A DNA stretch of 42,274 nucleotides from an uncultured Planctomyces sp. (lineage in GTDB: Bacteria > Planctomycetota > Planctomycetia > Planctomycetales > Planctomycetaceae). Below, piece by piece: positions 25,937 to 42,189 of the stretch (position 1 is its first letter; each line of letters starts with the position of its first letter). The position numbers were made by a program, and so were the translations under genes. The notes below the pieces were generated by a model. That model was not told the origin of the DNA. It saw nothing but the letters and a program-made list of their open reading frames with translations, and did no database searches. The stretch is from positions 1-42,274 of the forward strand of contig CALGTK010000063.1 of the NCBI GenBank assembly GCA_937904325.1, in the 5' to 3' direction.

Positions 25937-26167
25937 CACAGTCAGCTCCAAACAAAACCCGGTCATTTCGACTCTCGAAACGTCGTACTTTCGTCTCATA
26001 TTGAATCGTTAAAACGAAAACCAAGGCGGACGTTCAACTCCCAAAACCGTAAGACTATCACTGCCCACCCCCGCTCACCATGAGTTCTCTTGCCGAAAAT
26101 CGGCAGATTCCGCTACAAGTCTTTCGTTCTGAATGAGTTTCAGACACCTCATTTTCCCGTATAAAGC

Positions 26168-29100
26168 ATGGATGCTATGCCGCTCGAATCTATTCGGAGT
26201 CGAATTGCTGCGCGGTTCACAAATGCCCGAACCGCTTCCGCCCTGACAAGTTCCGCCCTGACAAGTTCCGCCTGTGGCATTCTAGCCATGTGCTGGACTC
26301 AGCAGGCTCTCGCTGGTTTTGGAACGTCGCTGATCAGTCAAACAGCCCTGGCCATCGTCAGCCTTCTGGGCATTGGGCTCGGCCTGGTCGCTTCAAACTG
26401 TTTGACTTCGATCAAGGCCGGTAACCCTGTAAAAAATCAATTGGGGCTACTGTTTTTTCTCCAATCAGTAATTGCTCTCACGGTACTGCTACCAGACGTT
26501 TTCTACGCTGCTGGCTGGGCGACCATCGACGTGGTCACTGGAGAATCGCTACCCGCTTCGACGAACGGGCAAATTGCTGCCCTTTGTTGTGGCCTCTGTG
26601 TTTCATGGCTCTTGCCATTTGCAGCCATCGTGACGCTGTTCTGTCACCAAAGTAACAGCCATGGTTCGACACATTTTGAGTTCTCAGGTTCCAGCCGACT
26701 GGTAATTGCGGCAGCGGCAGCGACAGTCACGATAACAACACTGTCGGGTACGCTCGGACTATCAGAAATTGCCCTTATTGTGTTGCCTGTCAGCATTGCA
26801 GGATCGGTCATCAAATCGTTGCTTGCTCTTCGAGCCCAAAACGCCACAGCCACGAATGGCGACGTCGTACCGCGCCCGTCGCCAACGATGTCTCAAGCGG
26901 CTTCTGACACATCGCTCCAGGCGATATTCCCTCTAGTTGCCTTCGCAGTTCTAAGCGGCGTCCTCTTTGCGACGCTTAGCCGAGTCAGCGGGCAACTATT
27001 CTTCGCCTCATCATGGCTGTCGATTCTTAAGTGTTCGTCGATCATCATCGGTGCGATTGCCTCTCGGTGGCTGATTAAGAGCGGGACGACGTCAGTTGCT
27101 CACCTCATGCCGATTGCCGCGGCGTGGGCCATCGCAAATCTCGCTGCCTGGCCTGCCGTCGTAAGCTTGTGCCTGAATATCAACTCTGGAATATCCAGCG
27201 TCGTGATTGCCGCAACCGCTCGAGCGTTCGTCGCAACGGCGTGCGTCTTGCCCGCAGGCCTGGTGATCGGAGCGTCCACCGCCTGGCGAACTAACAAAGA
27301 ACATCAGCCAGAATCGACCAAATTCAGCAGCCTCGCCTCGTTCGTGACCATCGCCTCGATACTCGCAGGATGGCTTTGCAGCCAATGGTGGCTTGCTGGC
27401 CAATTCAGTACTCAAGCTATCGTCATAGCGATCTCGACCATCTTCGCTATCAGTGCTGTCCGAAGGATAATCCGCATCGAGCCCCGACAAACACTTCTCC
27501 GCCCGACGTTCGCCGTCTGCTCGATCGTTTTAGTTGTCAGCTCCATTTTCTCGCATCACTATGCCCCGACGACTTCTGCCAAGCTGCTGTTCGACACCGC
27601 CGTCTTCGTTGCCCATCAGCACGAAGCAAGAAGCGACATCCTCCCCCACCTGGATGAAGGCCGCTGTGTCGCGACTGCCGAAACAGATCACGGCACCCTG
27701 ACTTTCTGGCGTTATCGCGGCCAGCAGTTACAGGTCCGGTCGTCAGGTTTGCCAGTCTCGTCGGTAAGTTGCGATACGAATATCTGCACACAACCTTCTG
27801 CTGAATCGCTGCAGACAATCTTACCGATGGTCATGCACGAAGGACCGACTCACCTGATGCTACTCGGAGCCCGTTCCGGAGCCGTCCTGCAAACAAGTAT
27901 CGCGTTCCCACTCGAATCAATCGTCTGTGTCGAGCCCGACGAAAACGTCGTCGCCGCCGTTTCAAACAATGTCTTCACGCAAATTACTCCCAATCCACTT
28001 AACGATTCACGAGTCTCACTACAAATTGCTGAGCCACTTTTGAAGCTGCGAACGGCAAGAAAACAGGCCGACATCATCATCGCCTCAGCCGACCAGCAGG
28101 GTGTACCTCAAGCCGCTTCGTCAATTACGACAGAATTTCTTGAATCAGCATCTGGAGCGCTGCGTGAAGACGGCCTCTTTTGTCAGCCTCTCGACTATGC
28201 CGATTTCGGACCAGACGCTTTGCAGGTGATCTTCGAAACGTGGCAGTCGGTCTTCTCAGAGATTGCCGCAATCGAGATCGCTCCCGGAAAGCTGCTGCTC
28301 ATTGCAACCAACAGCCCCGCAGGAATCATTCGTAAAGGAATCGTTGAACGTCTGCAACGGCCGAATGTGCGATTTGCCCTGGCGCAAACAGGCTGGGACT
28401 GGAGCACTCCCCTTCAACTTTCCACCTACACAGACCAGGGCCTGACAACGGCATTCGGAGAACCTCGCGGCAGAGTTTCAGACGTTTCGAGTAACCGTCT
28501 GACATGCCTTCTGCCTTGGGAAGTAATGCGCTGGGGAGACAAGTACACGGCAATCATGGATCGGCTTGGGCCGATTACACAGACGCTTCAATTCACGATT
28601 GGCGAAGAAGCCTACTCTCCGAAAGTCAGCAACCGCCTGGCTGAACTGACCGAGCAACAAAAACTCATCCACGATCATCCAGATGAATACTGGTTCTACC
28701 GCCGTACGGTCAAAAACCGTCTGAAAGATACTCCACAGTCAGAACTCGTTCAGGTCAAAGGCGAAGAACCACTGCACCAACTGCATGAAGATGAGAAACG
28801 ACGAGTTGACTACTTCACAGCACTCGGCGCTGCAGCCAGGCAGAAAGTACCAACGCCCGACGACCTATTGGCAGTTGAAGAATTTGCCAGCCCGCATGAC
28901 CCGCTGATCAGCCTGTTCCTTCATCAGGAAGTCGCCGAACTTGCCACGCGTAACCGTGCAGAAAACTTTCAGATCGAACTACAGAATCGGCTTCACAGAA
29001 TTTACTTCTCGGCCAGCAACGACCAGGCAGTCCGCAACGTCATTGCTTCCATCGAACTTCTCTGCGAGCACCCGGAGGCAATTCCCAACGACGCAGACAG

Positions 29101-29377
29101 GGGCGATCAACTGGATGCCTTATTGCAGACTCTCCACGATCGCTGGCACAACCGAGGCGAAACGCCACCCGGTTCTTCGAAAATCGTTCTTAACGATATC
29201 GAGCAAAGTGTTTCCGCAATCGACAACGCATTCACCGAACTGGCAAGCCTCAACGATTCTCGCGGCTACTCACCACACCAATGGCAGGCACGAAAACTGG
29301 CACTCGAAAAATCACTGCGACGACCACTGCAGGCCTATCGTTCAAGCCTGATGCCGCATCACGCCAGGGCTCGATAG
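26168..29377 (+). CDS. Large membrane protein with spermidine-synthase-like domain
   Basis: This 1069-residue protein has three parts. Residues about 25-465 hold roughly ten to twelve hydrophobic segments. Residues about 480-730 resemble the Rossmann-type aminopropyltransferase/spermidine-synthase domain, with HLMLLGARSGAVLQTSIAFP then SIVCVEPDENVVAAV. The nucleotide loop is unusual, and the expected catalytic Asp-containing motif is replaced by QIAEPLLKL, so polyamine synthesis is unlikely. Residues about 780-1069 are soluble and helical. Membrane-fused spermidine-synthase-like proteins occur in several bacteria, and their role is mostly unknown. The gene starts at ATG 26168 or at a second ATG three codons later. 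A 15-base direct repeat lies near its 5' end. Confidence 0.75.
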   Translation: MDAMPLESIRSRIAARFTNARTASALTSSALTSSACGILAMCWTQQALAGFGTSLISQTALAIVSLLGIGLGLVASNCLTSIKAGNPVKNQLGLLFFLQSVIALTVLLPDVFYAAGWATIDVVTGESLPASTNGQIAALCCGLCVSWLLPFAAIVTLFCHQSNSHGSTHFEFSGSSRLVIAAAAATVTITTLSGTLGLSEIALIVLPVSIAGSVIKSLLALRAQNATATNGDVVPRPSPTMSQAASDTSLQAIFPLVAFAVLSGVLFATLSRVSGQLFFASSWLSILKCSSIIIGAIASRWLIKSGTTSVAHLMPIAAAWAIANLAAWPAVVSLCLNINSGISSVVIAATARAFVATACVLPAGLVIGASTAWRTNKEHQPESTKFSSLASFVTIASILAGWLCSQWWLAGQFSTQAIVIAISTIFAISAVRRIIRIEPRQTLLRPTFAVCSIVLVVSSIFSHHYAPTTSAKLLFDTAVFVAHQHEARSDILPHLDEGRCVATAETDHGTLTFWRYRGQQLQVRSSGLPVSSVSCDTNICTQPSAESLQTILPMVMHEGPTHLMLLGARSGAVLQTSIAFPLESIVCVEPDENVVAAVSNNVFTQITPNPLNDSRVSLQIAEPLLKLRTARKQADIIIASADQQGVPQAASSITTEFLESASGALREDGLFCQPLDYADFGPDALQVIFETWQSVFSEIAAIEIAPGKLLLIATNSPAGIIRKGIVERLQRPNVRFALAQTGWDWSTPLQLSTYTDQGLTTAFGEPRGRVSDVSSNRLTCLLPWEVMRWGDKYTAIMDRLGPITQTLQFTIGEEAYSPKVSNRLAELTEQQKLIHDHPDEYWFYRRTVKNRLKDTPQSELVQVKGEEPLHQLHEDEKRRVDYFTALGAAARQKVPTPDDLLAVEEFASPHDPLISLFLHQEVAELATRNRAENFQIELQNRLHRIYFSASNDQAVRNVIASIELLCEHPEAIPNDADRGDQLDALLQTLHDRWHNRGETPPGSSKIVLNDIEQSVSAIDNAFTELASLNDSRGYSPHQWQARKLALEKSLRRPLQAYRSSLMPHHARAR
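26236..26273 (+). repeat. 15-base tandem repeat inside the large membrane protein gene
   Basis: The unit TTCCGCCCTGACAAG occurs at 26236-26250 and 26251-26265, with a partial third copy following. It encodes SALTS repeated in frame at residues 24-33, ahead of the first membrane helix. In-frame copy-number change would alter the length of the N-terminus without breaking the gene. Confidence 0.85.
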
Positions 29378-29415: not shown

Positions 29416-30387
29416 TCAGTGCAAGACCGGATCAACCACGAAGCGAACTGAGTCGCCGGTGGCCACGTCGTCGCAACGTTGGCTAAGAAAAACAGTGAGC
29501 CGCCGTTCTGATTCCCGTTCGCGAAGCTTTACTTCGGTTACAACCGCAGCATTCAAAACTGACTCCACAACGAAGCGCGCGTTGGAGTCCTGCACCAAGG
29601 TCAGATTTGACGGCCGGACACAGACGTCAGGACGACATATTCCGGCACATGCTTCCACTCCATCGACATCATCATGGCCGAGCCAGTTGCATGGGCCGAG
29701 CAACCAGGCAAGCTCTTTCGACGGGGGATCAAAGTAAAGCTCGTTCACCGCACCCGCAAATACGATGATTCCTTTCTCCAGACATACAACGTTTTGAGCA
29801 AACTTTAGAACTGCGTCTGGATCGTGCGTTGAGAAGACAACCGTCGTACCACACCGATCGATATGTTCCGCGATAATTTGCCAGCATCGATGAGCGTGCA
29901 GTGGGTCCACGTGTACCAGCGGTTCGTCGAGCACCAGTACGGCAGCTTCGGACGCGAGGGACCGAGCAATCGCCAGGCGAGACCGCTCTCCCTGCGAGAG
30001 CGAATCAGGAAGTACGTGCTGCAACTCCTCAAGACTGAACAACTCCAGCCATTCGACTGATGACCGGTCCAGCTGCGACTGAGACGGCAACACAAACTCA
30101 ATATGATGCTGAACGGTGAGATGCGGCCACAGACCGTCATCCTGAGGACTCCAGAACAGAGGCAGGTCGGTCGCGGTTTCAGGAGCAGCGAATTCAACAC
30201 TGCCTGCATCCGACTTCTCGAAATCAGTCAGAAGTCCGAGCAGTGAGGACTTACCTGCGCCGGAACTTCCCATCACAGCCGTCACTCCGTCGGAGATCGC
30301 CAGCGTCAAGTTATGCACACGCGGCCGATCGCGGCCCGCAAGCGTAACACGTCGCAAATCCCAAACAGGGTTCGACATATCTCCCAT
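29416..30387 (-). CDS. Iron(III)-type ABC importer, ATP-binding subunit
   Basis: This 323-residue protein has a Walker A at residues 40-47 (GSSGAGKS), a Q-loop at WSPQDDGLW, the signature LSQGERSRLAIARSL near 130, a Walker B at VLVLDEPL (about 150-157) and a switch histidine in FSTHDPDAV. A C-terminal OB-like extension of about 100 residues resembles the TOBE-type domain of FbpC/PotA importers. It follows the permease gene, with 31 bases between, in a binding protein-permease-ATPase order. Start choice is uncertain: ATG codons at 30387 and 30378 and a TTG at 30393 are all open. The substrate, iron(III), is inferred from the binding protein. Confidence 0.88.
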   Translation of the reverse strand: MGDMSNPVWDLRRVTLAGRDRPRVHNLTLAISDGVTAVMGSSGAGKSSLLGLLTDFEKSDAGSVEFAAPETATDLPLFWSPQDDGLWPHLTVQHHIEFVLPSQSQLDRSSVEWLELFSLEELQHVLPDSLSQGERSRLAIARSLASEAAVLVLDEPLVHVDPLHAHRCWQIIAEHIDRCGTTVVFSTHDPDAVLKFAQNVVCLEKGIIVFAGAVNELYFDPPSKELAWLLGPCNWLGHDDVDGVEACAGICRPDVCVRPSNLTLVQDSNARFVVESVLNAAVVTEVKLRERESERRLTVFLSQRCDDVATGDSVRFVVDPVLH

Positions 30388-30418
30388 CGTCAATCAATCC
30401 AACGGTAAAGCAGCACAT

Positions 30419-31921
30419 TTAGTTTGGTCGCGTATGACGCGTCATTCGTAAATAAACCTGCGGGGCAACTTGCGAGGTCAGAACAAGCAACACGAATGGG
30501 ACGAGCACCGACAGCACGGCCATCACGGACAAGGCCGCAGTTCTGCCCTGATGAATAAATTTGTAAAGACGAACAGGAAGCGGAACGACATTCCCGTTGA
30601 AGCTGAACAGTGGAATCGTTGGAGGACACAGTATCGCGGCAGCTGTCAGATTTGCCAGACACCAGTAGAACAGCACTGCCGTCACAAGAAACATCGGCCG
30701 GCACTCACACCACCACTTCAGATCTGCGGCATTCTTGAGCCGAGTCCGACCTCGCGACTTACCAAGGAGCGTCGCAAGAAACGCTGACTCCGAACTGCGA
30801 AAAACCGGCAAAAACGCCACCAGAATAGTCGCTCGCGGAACCAGACAGATCACCAGTGCCGCTGCCATCGGCCAGGCAGTCGTTCTCAAATCAAGCAGCG
30901 GTGCGTGCTGCGTTGCCACAAGAATAGCGATACTTACGACAAGTGATCCGAACAGCCCCGGTACTACGGTAAGCAGCAGTGGTACCGACGATACCGCTTT
31001 CGCAAAATCACTTTGAGTCGCGTCATAACCGTGAAAGATCTGAATTACCTTACGAGCCAGAACGAGCGACAAAATTGCACATGGAATTGTCAATGCGATC
31101 GCTGTGGCAAGGTCAAGGAACGTTGACCGCAGCAGCACCTGGTTCTCCAAAACTCCGCCAATTCCAGACAAGCCGGACCGCGTGACAAATGCCAGCGGAA
31201 TCACCCATGTCAGTAACGCGGCGAGAGAGGCGACAATCACTCCGAGCCAACGACTTGAACCGGACGCACAATCTACCGACCGCCACCGCGGTACGATCAC
31301 AGCAGAATTCGCAAGTCCCCACCAAAGCAGAGGCACCAGAATGACCGCCTGCAGAAGCACCGGCCCGAACAGCAACTTCAAAGTCGCGGCCATATTCAGA
31401 CCGCTGGCCTGAGCGTCGAACACGTGCACGGTCCAGGCGGGAATCTGCAGCAGGGACGCAATCTCAAATTCCTGCATGCTTAGCAAAAAGACTATACCAC
31501 ACACGGGAATGTGCCTTAGCAACTCAACATTCAACCGCATTGGTCGATGCTGACGTTTTTCGGCCACTCCGCATTCAATCAGGCGAGCACAGTGGAGCGC
31601 CGCCTTTGATACCGGAGCGGGCGGAGAGCAGATCCTGATTACAGCAGCGGCTGGCAGGATTTTCAGAAGAATCAGAACAAAATAGAAGCAGTGATTCAGC
31701 ACCGGGCGATGCAACAGCGACAACTCAAAAGAACGATAGCCATATCCAATAATCAAGTCCGGTGCGACAAGCGGGCAAAGCACAAAAAGCATCCACCAGA
31801 ATCGTGAACGCCCCGTGGCCTGTTGAACCAACTGCGAAAGACAAATGGACATCGGCACAGCAAGTGTGGTCGCGGCGACCGACCTTAAAATCGTCCACAC
31901 AAACGCTTCGTGGAAGCTCAT
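30419..31921 (-). CDS. Iron(III)-type ABC importer, permease subunit
   Basis: This 500-residue protein has about twelve hydrophobic segments arranged as two halves, the fused-permease plan of FbpB-type iron transporters. Each half should carry an EAA loop contacting the ATPase. I see candidate segments around QEFEIASLLQIP and LGKSRGRTRLKNAA, but the EAA motif is weak. The ATG at 31921 overlaps the stop codon of the binding-protein gene (ATGA), so translation is coupled. A longer frame to 31954 exists but is unlikely. The protein is diverged from textbook members, and the family is assigned mainly from topology and gene order. Confidence 0.82.
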   Translation of the reverse strand: MSFHEAFVWTILRSVAATTLAVPMSICLSQLVQQATGRSRFWWMLFVLCPLVAPDLIIGYGYRSFELSLLHRPVLNHCFYFVLILLKILPAAAVIRICSPPAPVSKAALHCARLIECGVAEKRQHRPMRLNVELLRHIPVCGIVFLLSMQEFEIASLLQIPAWTVHVFDAQASGLNMAATLKLLFGPVLLQAVILVPLLWWGLANSAVIVPRWRSVDCASGSSRWLGVIVASLAALLTWVIPLAFVTRSGLSGIGGVLENQVLLRSTFLDLATAIALTIPCAILSLVLARKVIQIFHGYDATQSDFAKAVSSVPLLLTVVPGLFGSLVVSIAILVATQHAPLLDLRTTAWPMAAALVICLVPRATILVAFLPVFRSSESAFLATLLGKSRGRTRLKNAADLKWWCECRPMFLVTAVLFYWCLANLTAAAILCPPTIPLFSFNGNVVPLPVRLYKFIHQGRTAALSVMAVLSVLVPFVLLVLTSQVAPQVYLRMTRHTRPN

Positions 31922-32961
31922 TGCAGATACTCGCTCTTCAACCACGACAGACAATCAGCGTGAGCATCAGCAAGCAACTTCAGGTCGACGCTTCTTTCAG
32001 ACCACAGCTTCAAATCCTGTACTTCTTCCGGCAATCCCGTGAAGTCAACTTGACCGAGCGGAATCTGACGGGACGGCGAACAAGCCAGTCGAGTTTCAAC
32101 GTCCTGCGACAGTAGAAAATCCACGAGCTTCTGAGCCGCGCCGAGACGCCGCGTCCCGCGGATAATTGACACCGAATTCGGAATGCAAATTGCATGTTCG
32201 CACGTCATAATAACGGGCACCATCTCGACAGGTTGCCCCTCGTCGACAGCCAGAAAGAAGTCGTCAGTATCAGTCCAGCCAAAGTCGCAGCGGCCACTTG
32301 CCACCAGATCTTTTACGACAGAGTTTCCGTTTACTTCAAGTAATCCGCGATCGCGCAGGCTCTTGTGCTGACGTTTAAGTTCTTCTCCGCCGACTTCGTC
32401 CCACAAAGCGACATACTGAGTCAACGTCGTTCCGAACATCGGCTTCGCAACAGCGACTCGCGCAAGTCCACCCTTTCCAAAAGCGTTCAATCGTTGAAAG
32501 ATGGCCTCGTGCGTTGCGGCCATGCTATCCGTATTCACAATGAAGACTCTGAGACGGGCGGCAAATCCGGTCCAGCTCCCATCGTCGGCCTTATACTGAG
32601 CCGGAATTCGAGCAAAGCCTTTTCCCTTGTACGACTGAAGCAGGCCGAGCTTCTGCAAATTCATCGTGCCCAGCACTTCGTTATTCCAGAAGACGTCGCA
32701 CTGGGGATTTTCACGTTCGGCGATCAACAGGTTCATCAAGCCAATCGACTTCGTCGCTTCCGTGTCAAAACGAATAATCAACCGAATACCGAACTCTCGT
32801 TCAAAGTCACGGAGAATTTCTTCGGAGTACGTCGAATCGTGCGAGCAGTAGACAACCAGTGCATCCTGCTGAGCCCCACCGCCCCACGACAACAGCGCAA
32901 TCATGCCCAGACAGAGGAACGTCGCCACGGTCGCAAACCTGGAACCTTCACCGGACGTCAT
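31918..32961 (-). CDS. Iron(III)-type ABC importer, substrate-binding protein
   Basis: This 347-residue protein has a hydrophobic signal segment at about residues 11-29. A periplasmic binding protein of the FutA/FbpA type follows: LVVYCSHDSTYSEEILRDFE, FDTEATKSIGLMNLLIAE, NPQCDVFWNNEVLGTMNL and SGRCDFGWTDTDDFFLAV. These are close to the iron(III)-binding cluster D proteins. There is no lipobox cysteine. The ATG at 32961 has a GAGG ribosome binding site and lies inside the end of the upstream coiled-coil gene. The stop overlaps the permease start. The binding and release of ferric iron in the periplasm is the expected role, though other metals or anions remain possible. Confidence 0.87.
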   Translation of the reverse strand: MTSGEGSRFATVATFLCLGMIALLSWGGGAQQDALVVYCSHDSTYSEEILRDFEREFGIRLIIRFDTEATKSIGLMNLLIAERENPQCDVFWNNEVLGTMNLQKLGLLQSYKGKGFARIPAQYKADDGSWTGFAARLRVFIVNTDSMAATHEAIFQRLNAFGKGGLARVAVAKPMFGTTLTQYVALWDEVGGEELKRQHKSLRDRGLLEVNGNSVVKDLVASGRCDFGWTDTDDFFLAVDEGQPVEMVPVIMTCEHAICIPNSVSIIRGTRRLGAAQKLVDFLLSQDVETRLACSPSRQIPLGQVDFTGLPEEVQDLKLWSERSVDLKLLADAHADCLSWLKSEYLQ

Positions 32962-34813
32962 TAATAGCCTCGCCAGCGCCAGCTGCATCAGAACTGTCTA
33001 CAGATTCCACAGTCGGCCTGCCATTGAGACTGTCTTGCTGGCTAGTCTGCTCGAGCGAATCGAAATAGCGACGAATGCCCGATACGTAACCAGGTGGAAT
33101 CTCTTCAACCTCAATCACTGTGAGGACTCGTCTCTGAAGACTTCGGACAAGCTCTCGGTACTCATCAGAAACCTCACCCACTTCTGAAAGTCCCTGGCGA
33201 CGCATCGCCAGTAAACGACGGGTTTCTTCAAGCCTCAAGCTTTCCCTCGCATCCCGAAATACAGTTTCTGCGCGGTCGTTTTCCCCGGTAGTTGCTTGCC
33301 CGGATGAACTATTTGTCGACCTGCCTGCTGACTTTCCCTCACTCGCGACCCCCGACTTACCTTCACCTTTTGATTCTGACTGACCATCAGTCGAAGCAAG
33401 CTGCTGCCCTGGCGAATTGGGCATGCCTTCGTTTTCGCGGCGTTGATCGTTTCCGGCATCCGCATCCCCATTCTCGTCTTCCAACTTCGCGTACTTGTCA
33501 ACGAATTTCTGAATCCTCGACCCGTCGCTCTGAGAAGTTTTTCCAGAGTCAGACTGCACCAACTGCTTTGCTGACTGGATGGCGTTCAAGGCATCTTCCA
33601 GCAATGCGACGTCCTTAGCATTCTGAGCAATCTGGTGCATCTCCTGCTGGGCCAATTCGATTGATTCTCGTGCCGCAGTTGCTGCTTCCGATTTCAGTCC
33701 CGAATCAAGCCGCATCGAATCAAGCTGACTCATCGCTCGCTGCATCGCCGTTTCCGCAAACTTTGACTCGAGCTGATTTCCACTAAATCGCTGCAACTCG
33801 GCAACCTGCTGGCGAACATGCCTTTCGAGTCCCTGGCGATCAACTTCGTCAGCGGAAGACGCCAACTCCGAAAACTCATCCTGCAAAGTAGCAAACGCTT
33901 CATCGAGCGAATCCATCTGCCCTTCTGCCATATCTTCAACCCACTTCCGGCTGCCGTTGTCGGTCGGCCCCAGAAACTGATTGACCTGAGCATACTCAAG
34001 CAGCCGCGCAACGCCCTGATCATTTCTCGCCTCACGCCAGCGTGCCTCAACCAAACGTTGACGACTCTCAAGTTCCTGCAAACTTACAGCGGATCGGTAA
34101 TCCGTAAGCCGCCGCAATTCAACAGCAAGTTCTGTCAAGAATTCATCGGAGCCATCTACCAAAGCAGTCGACTCTCGACGAGCCGATAATTCAGCTGCGC
34201 GAATGGAAGTCGCACGACGCGACTCTTCCAAATCCCGCCGCACAGCAACAAATGTATCTGCAGACTTCACCATACCGAACGGGTCAAACTGAGGAACAAA
34301 CTGCACCGCAAGGACAAGTACAACAGCTCCGCCAGCAAGACGAACTGCTGATCGTCGCCAATTCCACGGCACGATCTGCGACGATCGAATTCCAACGGAA
34401 AGCTTCTCGGCCTGATTAGAAACGACGACCTGATACGCACCACCGCAAGACCGAAGCTGAACGAGCGTCAAAAACAAATCATTCGCTCCACAAGTTGTGT
34501 CGATCTTTCGAGCCGCTTCCACAATCGTCGGTTTATGACCAGCTCGAAATGCGATCAACACGGCGAACACCGGCAGCACAGCGAGTGCATCCGCAGTAAA
34601 CCAATCCGAACCAACACCGCACAATCGCCGAATCAGCAAGGCAACCAGACAGGCAGCGACGAGCCAGCACATCGTCGAGCTGAAAGTAAAACAATATTCT
34701 GCAATTCGAAGGCGCGCGACCACTCGCTGAGTAAGTCGCTCAGCGGAAGTCCACTGTGATTTTCCCCTGGAAACATCCACCCGGTCCATCTCCGAATTCG
34801 AAACCTGCCACAT
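32948..34813 (-). CDS. Membrane-anchored coiled-coil protein, function unknown
   Basis: This protein of about 621 residues has two adjacent hydrophobic segments near the N-terminus (MCWLVAACLVALLIRRL, then ADALAVLPVFAVLIAF) and a third near residues 145-165 (LAGGAVVLVLAVQFVP). Long charged helices with coiled-coil character follow (LRRLTDYRSAVSLQELE; ESIELAQQEMHQIAQ). A low-complexity Ser/Gly/Gln/Lys-rich linker lies near residues 465-515, with a final helical segment after it. I recognise no defined family; some planctomycete DUF4175-like proteins have a similar plan. The start is uncertain, since the frame is open to a TTG at 34909. The 3' end overlaps the binding-protein gene by 14 bases, placing it in the importer operon. 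Confidence 0.75.
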   Translation of the reverse strand: MWQVSNSEMDRVDVSRGKSQWTSAERLTQRVVARLRIAEYCFTFSSTMCWLVAACLVALLIRRLCGVGSDWFTADALAVLPVFAVLIAFRAGHKPTIVEAARKIDTTCGANDLFLTLVQLRSCGGAYQVVVSNQAEKLSVGIRSSQIVPWNWRRSAVRLAGGAVVLVLAVQFVPQFDPFGMVKSADTFVAVRRDLEESRRATSIRAAELSARRESTALVDGSDEFLTELAVELRRLTDYRSAVSLQELESRQRLVEARWREARNDQGVARLLEYAQVNQFLGPTDNGSRKWVEDMAEGQMDSLDEAFATLQDEFSELASSADEVDRQGLERHVRQQVAELQRFSGNQLESKFAETAMQRAMSQLDSMRLDSGLKSEAATAARESIELAQQEMHQIAQNAKDVALLEDALNAIQSAKQLVQSDSGKTSQSDGSRIQKFVDKYAKLEDENGDADAGNDQRRENEGMPNSPGQQLASTDGQSESKGEGKSGVASEGKSAGRSTNSSSGQATTGENDRAETVFRDARESLRLEETRRLLAMRRQGLSEVGEVSDEYRELVRSLQRRVLTVIEVEEIPPGYVSGIRRYFDSLEQTSQQDSLNGRPTVESVDSSDAAGAGEAINDVR

Positions 34814-34976
34814 TGCAATCCGTGAGTCTACAGTCGGCCCAGGCCGACTCGCAATCTGCTGAACCAACGCGTCGCATCGTGGCTTCGAAATTCGGCGACC
34901 ACCGGGCAACTTGGAAAGACGATTAAGGACCCGCTACCGACAAACAAGGGGCAGCCGCACATCCTCAAGGCAGTCG

Positions 34977-41046: not shown

Positions 41047-41112
41047 AACTCAACGCCGCCTCAAAACTCATCCCAGATACAACCCGCAACTCTCATTCAG
41101 CACGGATGCTCG

Positions 41113-42189
41113 ATGATCACCTCTTGCCTTAAATGTCCCCTGCTCTCACTGACCGTCATTAGCTCTGTTTTGCTCGGCACAGCGACGACCCGTTCGTCGC
41201 ACGCCGCTGACGAAACAACCACAGCCAAAGCCAAACCGACCGAGACACAGAAGGTTGCTGGCGAATCCACAAATGCGGAAACGACAGACCCGGAAGTAAC
41301 AACCAGGCCGGCAGGTATCCTGTTGAGATATCACTTCAAAAAGGGCCAGTACGTCCATTACGAAGAGGACTCGCAGTCCAAAATGACATTAATGGCCCGC
41401 GAGCAGACACAGGAGACGTCTGAGAAGCGACGAACCAATAAACACTTCAGAGTTGTCTCAGTCGACGAAGATGGATCGGCTGTCGTCGAACCCATCATTG
41501 ACCGAGTTCAGATGGAAGTCCGTAATGACAACGGCCACCCTGTCGCCTACGACTCAGCCAATAAAGGGTCCGCTCCGAAAGACTTCAAAAAAGTCGAAGA
41601 GACTATTGGAAAGCCGTCACTTCGGATTCGCTACGCAGCCAATGGCAGGATTGAACAGTTATTACCTCTGAATGTGCAAAGCCACAAAGAGATCGAAGCC
41701 ACCGAGCAGAAAAAGCAAAACTTCCTGATCGCGTTCCCGGAAGACGTTATCGCCATCGGCGAAGCCTGGTCCGACAACTACATGATTGACGTTTCCGTAG
41801 ACGGCAAGCTTCGTAATCCATTGAAAAAAAGAGTCAAGATTCGACGTACTTACACACTGAAAGAAATCAAAGATGGAATTGCCAGCATCGGATTTCGGAT
41901 CTTCCCGCTCGCTGTTGAGCGAGACCCACGAATCAAAGGCGAGCTCATTCACCACTCGCGATTCGGGAGCGTTCAATTCGACATTGAACGCGGCATCATC
42001 CTCAAATGGCAGAGCAGCGGCAAAGGCCAGGTATTCGAAGCTTTTGGTCCATCGTCAATGATGAAAGCGCTGTCGAACACCACCGAACGGTATGTTCCGT
42101 CGCCGTCCGCTGCGAAACGCCAGCCGCCAGCTCCAAAGAAACCTGCGGGGCCGGCTGGACCACAACTGCCAGGCATCTCCAGTCTGTAA
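41113..42189 (+). CDS. Secreted protein, DUF6263-like, function unknown
   Basis: This 358-residue protein has a signal peptide (CPLLSLTVISSVLLGTA, cut near HAADE). A Thr/Lys-rich linker follows, then a beta-rich domain with LRYHFKKGQYVHYEEDSQSK, VDEDGSAVVEPIIDRVQMEV, FPEDVIAIGEAWSDNY and FDIERGIILKWQSSG. This pattern resembles the DUF6263-type proteins of planctomycetes, though I am not certain of the family. The tail is Pro/Ala-rich (RQPPAPKKPAGPAGPQ). No strong ribosome binding site precedes the ATG. The gene ends about 40 bases before the repeat at the window edge. Confidence 0.75.
   Translation: MITSCLKCPLLSLTVISSVLLGTATTRSSHAADETTTAKAKPTETQKVAGESTNAETTDPEVTTRPAGILLRYHFKKGQYVHYEEDSQSKMTLMAREQTQETSEKRRTNKHFRVVSVDEDGSAVVEPIIDRVQMEVRNDNGHPVAYDSANKGSAPKDFKKVEETIGKPSLRIRYAANGRIEQLLPLNVQSHKEIEATEQKKQNFLIAFPEDVIAIGEAWSDNYMIDVSVDGKLRNPLKKRVKIRRTYTLKEIKDGIASIGFRIFPLAVERDPRIKGELIHHSRFGSVQFDIERGIILKWQSSGKGQVFEAFGPSSMMKALSNTTERYVPSPSAAKRQPPAPKKPAGPAGPQLPGISSL

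Follow-up and report, generated by a model that had tools for sequence, protein, structure and literature searches.

The window analysed here is the whole 42,274-nucleotide stretch of a contig from an uncultured Planctomyces sp., whose draft genome (G000) comprises 7.97 Mb in 488 contigs. Positions 26168-29377 of its forward strand hold a single uninterrupted open reading frame of 1069 amino acids, preceded by genes for DUF1598, DUF58 and BatA/VWA proteins and followed by an ABC transporter. At least 1000 amino acids are encoded by 57 of the 64 ortholog reading frames collected and dN/dS relative to G003 is 0.16 over the whole protein, so the gene can be taken as real. Constraint is established and is uneven along the protein, with values relative to G003 of 0.26 in the membrane domain, 0.03 in residues 471-550, 0.09 in the Rossmann domain and 0.08 in the C-terminal domain; relative to G004, a comparison in which silent sites are near saturation, the corresponding values are 0.15 for the whole protein and 0.22, 0.07, 0.08 and 0.10 for its parts. 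The start favoured by the relatives is the second ATG, at 26177 (Met4 of the listed frame), and the first ATG, at 26168, sits within the loop of a conserved hairpin (Table 1). A preliminary description of the locus as encoding a 1069-residue membrane protein with a degenerate spermidine-synthase-like domain is borne out by the intact frame, hydropathy, a match to Pfam PF01564 and the loss of catalytic Asp residues.

Table 1. Features of the locus, in coordinates of the window.
Feature	Coordinates	Strand	Basis
CsrA-type mini-hairpin AGC-ATGGAT-GCT; 3-bp stem, ANGGAN hexaloop 26168-26173, GGA 26170-26172; abuts ATG 26177	26165..26176	+	Ortholog start comparison
Coding sequence, counted from the start that relatives favour	26177..29377	+	Ortholog start comparison; listed ORF begins at 26168, in the hairpin loop
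Membrane domain at the N terminus, of a divergent fused-MFS type; some 11 helices, approximately residues 40-465	26285..27562	+	Hydropathy, profile-profile comparison
Strongly constrained segment ahead of the Rossmann domain, residues 471-550	27578..27817	+	dN/dS 0.03 to G003, 0.07 to G004
Degenerate spermidine-synthase-like Rossmann domain, residues 551-790	27818..28537	+	Pfam, profile search, alignment
GARSG replacing GGGDG, residues 567-571, acidic residue lost	27866..27880	+	Alignment with SpeE chain, ortholog scoring
SADQ replacing DxxD, residues 640-643, both catalytic Asp lost	28085..28096	+	Alignment with SpeE chain, ortholog scoring
New C-terminal domain, residues 795-1060, in this bacterial family only	28550..29347	+	Profiles, phylum search, ortholog alignment

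Hydropathy analysis finds 11 segments between residues 51 and 461 of the window protein and 8-13 in each of 16 orthologs, in keeping with the ten or more helices first proposed. When a profile of the ortholog membrane domains was compared by hhalign with seven fused MFS/spermidine synthase proteins of related genomes, all of which match NCBIfam NF037959 with E values no higher than 0.1 (4e-34 for the best), it aligned over 367 columns with a probability of 98.0% (E 1.6e-13), against 0.2% for a control, an unrelated hydrophobic protein of 511 amino acids from the same locus. The Rossmann profile aligned with the same seven proteins at 99.9% (E 1.9e-31) and the C-terminal profile at 0.3%, the C-terminal domain being absent from all seven. 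Five of 17 orthologs match NF037959 itself (best E 1.3e-5), and the window protein has no match to it at E 0.1. It is clear from these comparisons that the membrane and Rossmann parts descend from the "fused MFS/spermidine synthase" architecture, and we regard this homology as established. Because the profiles of the first two parts match the fused-MFS set and that of the third does not, the layout is of a known kind with a new third part. The architecture had initially been described as not matching classic polyamine synthases, an account that is incomplete, since a membrane domain joined to a spermidine-synthase domain is already known from NF037959 and from the fungal protein NHMT (in the part of PMC10349129 available to us), and the membrane part aligns with the fused-MFS type. 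Like the fused proteins (NF037959, MFS_SpdSyn), the window protein has a membrane domain followed by a spermidine-synthase-like domain; it differs from them in its eroded pocket residues and its extra C-terminal domain.

Residues 552-697 score 35 bits with Pfam PF01564, for which the cut-off is 22.9 (E 1.4e-8), and a profile of 17 orthologs retrieves spermidine synthases among solved structures at E 1.6e-17, with chain 3o4f_A ("Spermidine synthase"), which we take to be the E. coli protein. The window protein shares its Rossmann core with SpeE (PF01564, TIGR00417), and is set apart from it by the absence of the catalytic Asp residues and the GGGDG acid and by the added membrane and C-terminal domains. 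In the alignment, "SDCTDP" of SpeE faces "ASADQQ" of the window protein, which places S640 and Q643 at the Asp positions. The second Asp of DxxDP, at position 643, is present in only 2 of 63 orthologs, and position 640, the first Asp, is D or E in 4 of 63; at position 570, the acid of GxG(D/E)G, where the window protein has S, one ortholog of 62 has D and none has E. As a positive control, ten SpeE-type loci were scanned, nine of which matched, and both Asp residues were kept in eight of those nine. The loss of the active site is thus established, and the Rossmann domain, which had been described as lacking the usual catalytic Asp motif, is degenerate across the family. The seven fused-MFS paralogs already carry V or H at the second Asp, with D or Q at the first, so part of the Asp loss may predate the family of the window protein.

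Conservation at the cofactor site is patchy. The window protein keeps G567, G571, E589 and E622, and the combination of the two glycines with an acid at 589 and at 622 recurs in 19 of 62 orthologs, the window protein included, which leaves room for ligand binding or methyl transfer; a SAM pocket conserved family-wide was not found, the four pocket residues occurring together in those 19 only. Conservation of two segments had been proposed as a check: the LGARSG loop varies among orthologs, and VEPDE is kept in part, 48 of 62 having an acidic residue (E or D) at 589 and seven orthologs of one clade having Arg there. On a family tree built without the cofactor-site columns (16 of its 60 inner branches are weak), the minimum number of state changes is 10 for the glycine loop, with gaps scored as loss, 6 for position 589 and 13 for position 622.

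The soluble C-terminal third, which had been proposed to follow the Rossmann domain, gave no significant match in Pfam or among solved structures (PDB). That this domain is new did not figure in the preliminary description. It was found in 28 of 392 genomes of the phylum, all of the same family as the window's host. Nine positions are identical in every sequence scored (G527, P581, F696, Y844, R845, E921, R992, R996 and R1042), and the last six of these, each invariant in 63 of 63 sequences, lie in the C-terminal domain. AlphaFold2 models, for which the input was three near-identical rows, were of too low a quality to be used (pLDDT 51 and 35), and in the C-terminal model only about the last 120 residues lie mostly at pLDDT 58-84; a PDB fold search with this poor model gave no match at E 0.001, the best, at 0.29, being mostly helical repeat and 14-3-3 folds, and we assign no fold on this basis. 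Internal repeats were sought with hhalign and none was shown, the six best scores all coming from overlapping slices.

What, then, might such a protein do? From sequence, aminopropyl transfer appears to be excluded, and the earlier opinion that this is no classic polyamine synthase holds, given the lost Asp pair, the lost GGGDG acid and scores below the SpeE equivalog cut-offs (43.8 against 260 bits and 39.6 against 249.55 bits). Despite the lost active site, the soluble domains have dN/dS values of 0.08-0.09, which points to a maintained protein that is not an aminopropyltransferase. A membrane aminopropyltransferase with a relocated active site would accommodate the Pfam and NCBIfam profiles that label the protein spermidine synthase-like, and is nonetheless very improbable: besides the missing Asp residues and the low equivalog scores, SpeD (PF02675), though present in G000, has no match in 5 of 13 same-family genomes searched, all five of which carry the window gene and two of which (G009 and G012) are single-contig assemblies, and related genomes encode additional SpeE-like proteins whose motifs are intact, with a fragment in G000.

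The main rival for the function of the protein is an active membrane-anchored SAM-dependent methyltransferase that, like fungal NHMT, would act on a secreted or membrane substrate. As described in the portion of PMC10349129 at hand, NHMT (AN4663) has a multi-helix membrane domain fused to a spermidine-synthase-like domain without the GxG(D/E)G acid, Ile at the same loop position marks it as a non-spermidine synthase, and its methyl transfer is proven; like the window gene, it is also mostly single copy (about 97% for NHMT) and confined to a lineage. The same replacement of the acid, together with the four cofactor-site residues kept in the window protein, speaks for this reading. NHMT differs in having 7 helices, 558 amino acids, a shown activity and no third domain, and its 7TM domain, found almost only in filamentous fungi, is a different domain (same partial source). 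The rarity of the full set of four residues, the Arg clade, the repeated changes in the loop and the invariance of six C-terminal residues while the cofactor site varies all count against methyl transfer, and on balance we consider it unlikely; the uneven loss of the cofactor site weakens the case more for the family at large than for the clade to which the window protein belongs. A membrane sensor and a membrane transferase, the two options named at the outset, may both be readings of the window protein.

The gene is fixed in the family and is, as a rule, single copy. In one set of same-family genomes it was found in 24 of 25, the single miss being a genome 59% complete. In a sample of the class, 69 of 248 genomes match, namely 68 of the same family and one partial match elsewhere, and no same-family genome stands among the non-matching genomes listed by name; a further 159 without a match are not named there, so that universality in the family rests, for this sample, on the order of the listing. 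This distribution is established; a conserved gene neighbourhood beyond close relatives was not found, and no partner is shared among the ortholog loci examined. The gene order of the window is kept in the genus and in L034, and partly in L083 (DUF1598 and the next gene). In three loci (L039, L048 and L049) ispD and an unknown gene directly follow the ortholog; in L041 the same two genes lie farther away, and in L110 the unknown gene alone was seen. Inspection of the neighbourhood in relatives, suggested earlier as a route to function, therefore yielded no functional clue, the order being common to close relatives only. A defence system was considered and rejected, there being no PADLOC match. 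The family of the window protein is absent from the titles or opening lines of abstracts that we found.

When the ortholog starts were listed, a repeated string became visible before the ATG, a feature unmentioned in the preliminary description. Among orthologs the 12-nt element reads RGC-ANGGAN-GCY, as GGC-ANGGAN-GCC or, in the window's genus, AGC-ATGGAT-GCT. Under a looser rule, which asks for A-N-G-G-A and for an ATG in frame no more than 3 nt from the 12-mer, with no stem required, it is present in 47 of the 58 orthologs with closed 5′ ends, and these come from 28 genera. All three stem pairs are possible in 45 of the 47: 37 have G-C/G-C/C-G, five have A-U outside and three have G-U in the middle, the remaining two showing a G-G outer mismatch. 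Under a strict criterion the element is found in 46 of the 58 orthologs and, among 557 other ORFs from these loci, in 12 (Fisher p 1e-46, relatedness ignored), or in 42 and 9 when G-U is disallowed; the control ORFs, non-overlapping and at least 150 amino acids long, may include some that are not genes, which could make the control rate a slight underestimate. The RGCANGGANGCY-form 12-mer occurs near ortholog starts 48 times in sense and never in antisense orientation, with 12 further copies in about 1 Mb. The element is conserved and sharply bounded: of the columns not required by the search, three (6, 7 and 14) do not vary and three more (5, 15 and 16) reach 1.3-1.7 bits, and the four flanking columns on either side, ahead of the element and beyond the ATG, hold 0.02-0.30 bits. 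The 11 exceptions to the looser rule comprise longer spacing (L077, L088 and L092), a start inside the loop (L094, L100 and L102), a shorter loop (L047), a weak variant (L087) and no element (L048, L072 and L110). A coding explanation (G-K-D-A-M) was rejected, since in many orthologs the element precedes the ORF or lies in a different frame, and no known RNA family was matched in the window at Rfam gathering thresholds. Because the element has stayed next to the start codon across proteins that have diverged to 24-29% identity, selected post-transcriptional control is indicated.

Pairing of the stem is possible in 98.5% of cells, against 28-62% with the partner slid, and the covariation score (0.147) is above those of all shuffles, with a slid control (-3) higher still at 0.162. 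There is one compensatory change only, from G-C to A-U, in one clade, and shuffles yield at least as great a variety of pair types. Folding predictions lend the hairpin little support: for six leader stretches, taken from five loci, the computed energies do not improve on those of shuffled sequences; the expected stem appears in the lowest-energy fold for L037 and L039 and is absent for the window, L050 and L075.

The element resembles a binding site for the lifestyle regulator CsrA. In the part of PMC7652899 available to us, the CsrA SELEX consensus is given as RUACARGGAUGU, with loops mostly of six bases and stems of four or fewer pairs; CsrA/RsmE is said to contact the ANGGAN hexaloop at A and GGA, CsrA to repress through sites over the Shine-Dalgarno sequence, and known sites also to avoid very stable stems. 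Judged by its sequence, the 12-nt element matches this published site in its hexaloop, its short stem and its position over the Shine-Dalgarno. With CsrA/RsmA-repressed mRNAs such as E. coli hfq and glgC it shares a short-stemmed ANGGAN loop at the Shine-Dalgarno (same partial source), and it differs from them in that CsrA binding is here a prediction. CsrA (PF02599) was found in all 40 genomes searched, with 2-16 matches each and six in G000. The copies of GGCANGGATGCC in G000 number 12, against one for the reversed control; most lie away from evident gene starts, and one is at flhA, the gene of the flagellar gate. Of 16 same-family genomes, one of them represented by a contig-edge fragment, 10 have GGCAyGGATGCC near the flhA start; none of nine others has it, one of these having a near variant. 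Two of the seven fused-MFS paralogs tested, both from the same genus, begin with AGCATGGATGCT, the G000 copy with an outer mismatch.

The element could instead be a DNA operator or merely a strong ribosome-binding site. It is an inverted repeat with a Shine-Dalgarno-like GGA, the predicted folds contain the stem in two of five loci only, and CsrA binding is itself predicted, all of which such an explanation would suit. Against this stand the restriction to the sense strand, the placement 0-3 nt from the ATG in 47 of 58 orthologs, and an asymmetric A-N-GG-A-N loop that follows the CsrA consensus. Rarity counts against a general ribosome site: few of the 557 other ORFs have the element and perfect GGCANGGANGCCATG copies number 0-3 per genome in 25 genomes; the form directly before an ATG occurs 20 times in all in these genomes, and four of these 20 are at the window gene. 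We therefore think it quite unlikely that the element is an operator or a plain ribosome site.

The reading that we prefer, and to which we would give an even chance of being right, is that the window protein is a family-wide membrane pseudoenzyme under CsrA control that acts as a scaffold or sensor. An ancestral fused MFS/spermidine synthase would have become a membrane-bound pseudoenzyme in the ancestor of the host's planctomycete family, and would then have gained the C-terminal domain and become fixed. Most likely, the C-terminal addition and what remains of the Rossmann domain would engage a small ligand or a partner at the membrane. At the level of the mRNA, CsrA would most likely repress translation by covering the hairpin loop with its Shine-Dalgarno GGA next to the AUG; since CsrA on the leader would block the ribosome, the protein would be made when CsrA activity falls, and a link to the switch between motile and sessile states can be envisioned.

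A bolder version of the scaffold or sensor reading is possible, though we hold it to be doubtful: the window protein would be a family-defining membrane pseudoenzyme whose gene ranks, among direct CsrA targets of planctomycetes, with the most deeply conserved and shares its element with flhA and one fused-MFS paralog, and the protein would be an effector of the swarmer-to-sessile switch whose C-terminal domain reads the state of membrane machinery. The accessible part of PMC10729762 states that CsrA is conserved in the planctomycete phylum, without more on CsrA, that of PMC9029176 holds nothing of use on planctomycete CsrA targets, and no such target appears in the titles and opening lines of abstracts found. 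If the proposed explanation is true, the locus would offer a testable handle both on the role of widespread fused MFS/spermidine-synthase proteins after loss of the enzyme site and on what CsrA controls in planctomycetes, with their many CsrA copies. The number of CsrA matches in these bacteria reaches 16 in a single genome.

CsrA, the presumed ligand of the 12-nt hairpin (RGC-ANGGAN-GCY) beside the ATG of the membrane protein gene, is encoded in multiple copies, with six PF02599 matches in the window genome and between 2 and 16 per genome across 40 planctomycete genomes. Related elements are found at other gene starts (table). Near the start of flhA, the flagellar gate gene, GGCAyGGATGCC is present in 10 of the 16 genomes from the same planctomycete family, and the flhA ATG apparently lies inside the element. 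The fused MFS/spermidine synthase paralogs L054 and L055 both begin with AGCATGGATGCT, which places the ATG in the loop; the start of a third (L056, C430 in the window genome) resembles it but carries an outer mismatch, and the AGCATGGATGCT start was not found in four other such paralogs tested. The L125 gene downstream of GGCAAGGATGCC looks like a lipoprotein gene.

Candidate hairpins and genes 3' of the membrane protein gene
Feature	Location	Strand	Start codon
AGCACGGATGCT, predicted CsrA-type hairpin	window 41099-41110		ATG of gene 41113-42189, 2 nt downstream
GGCAAGGATGCC	L125 (window genome, contig 200)		ATG 3 nt downstream
GGCAyGGATGCC	L165, L173, L174, L175, L176, L178, L179, L182, L184, L187		near flhA start
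ABC ATPase gene	within window 29416-34909	minus
511-aa protein gene	within window 29416-34909	minus
PhnS-like binding protein gene	within window 29416-34909	minus
653-aa unknown protein gene	within window 29416-34909	minus

The order of the four minus-strand genes is kept in L031, L032, L034 and L051; the 511-aa protein, for which a Pfam search gave no match, is likely a permease. At three loci from other genera (L039, L048 and L049), two genes in the same orientation come after the membrane protein gene: ispD and one whose product, 600-740 aa long, is of unknown family. At L041 this pair lies more distant from the membrane protein gene.

Besides the membrane protein gene, one further window gene is preceded by a predicted CsrA-type hairpin (AGCACGGATGCT), and its protein matches PF19777 (DUF6263).
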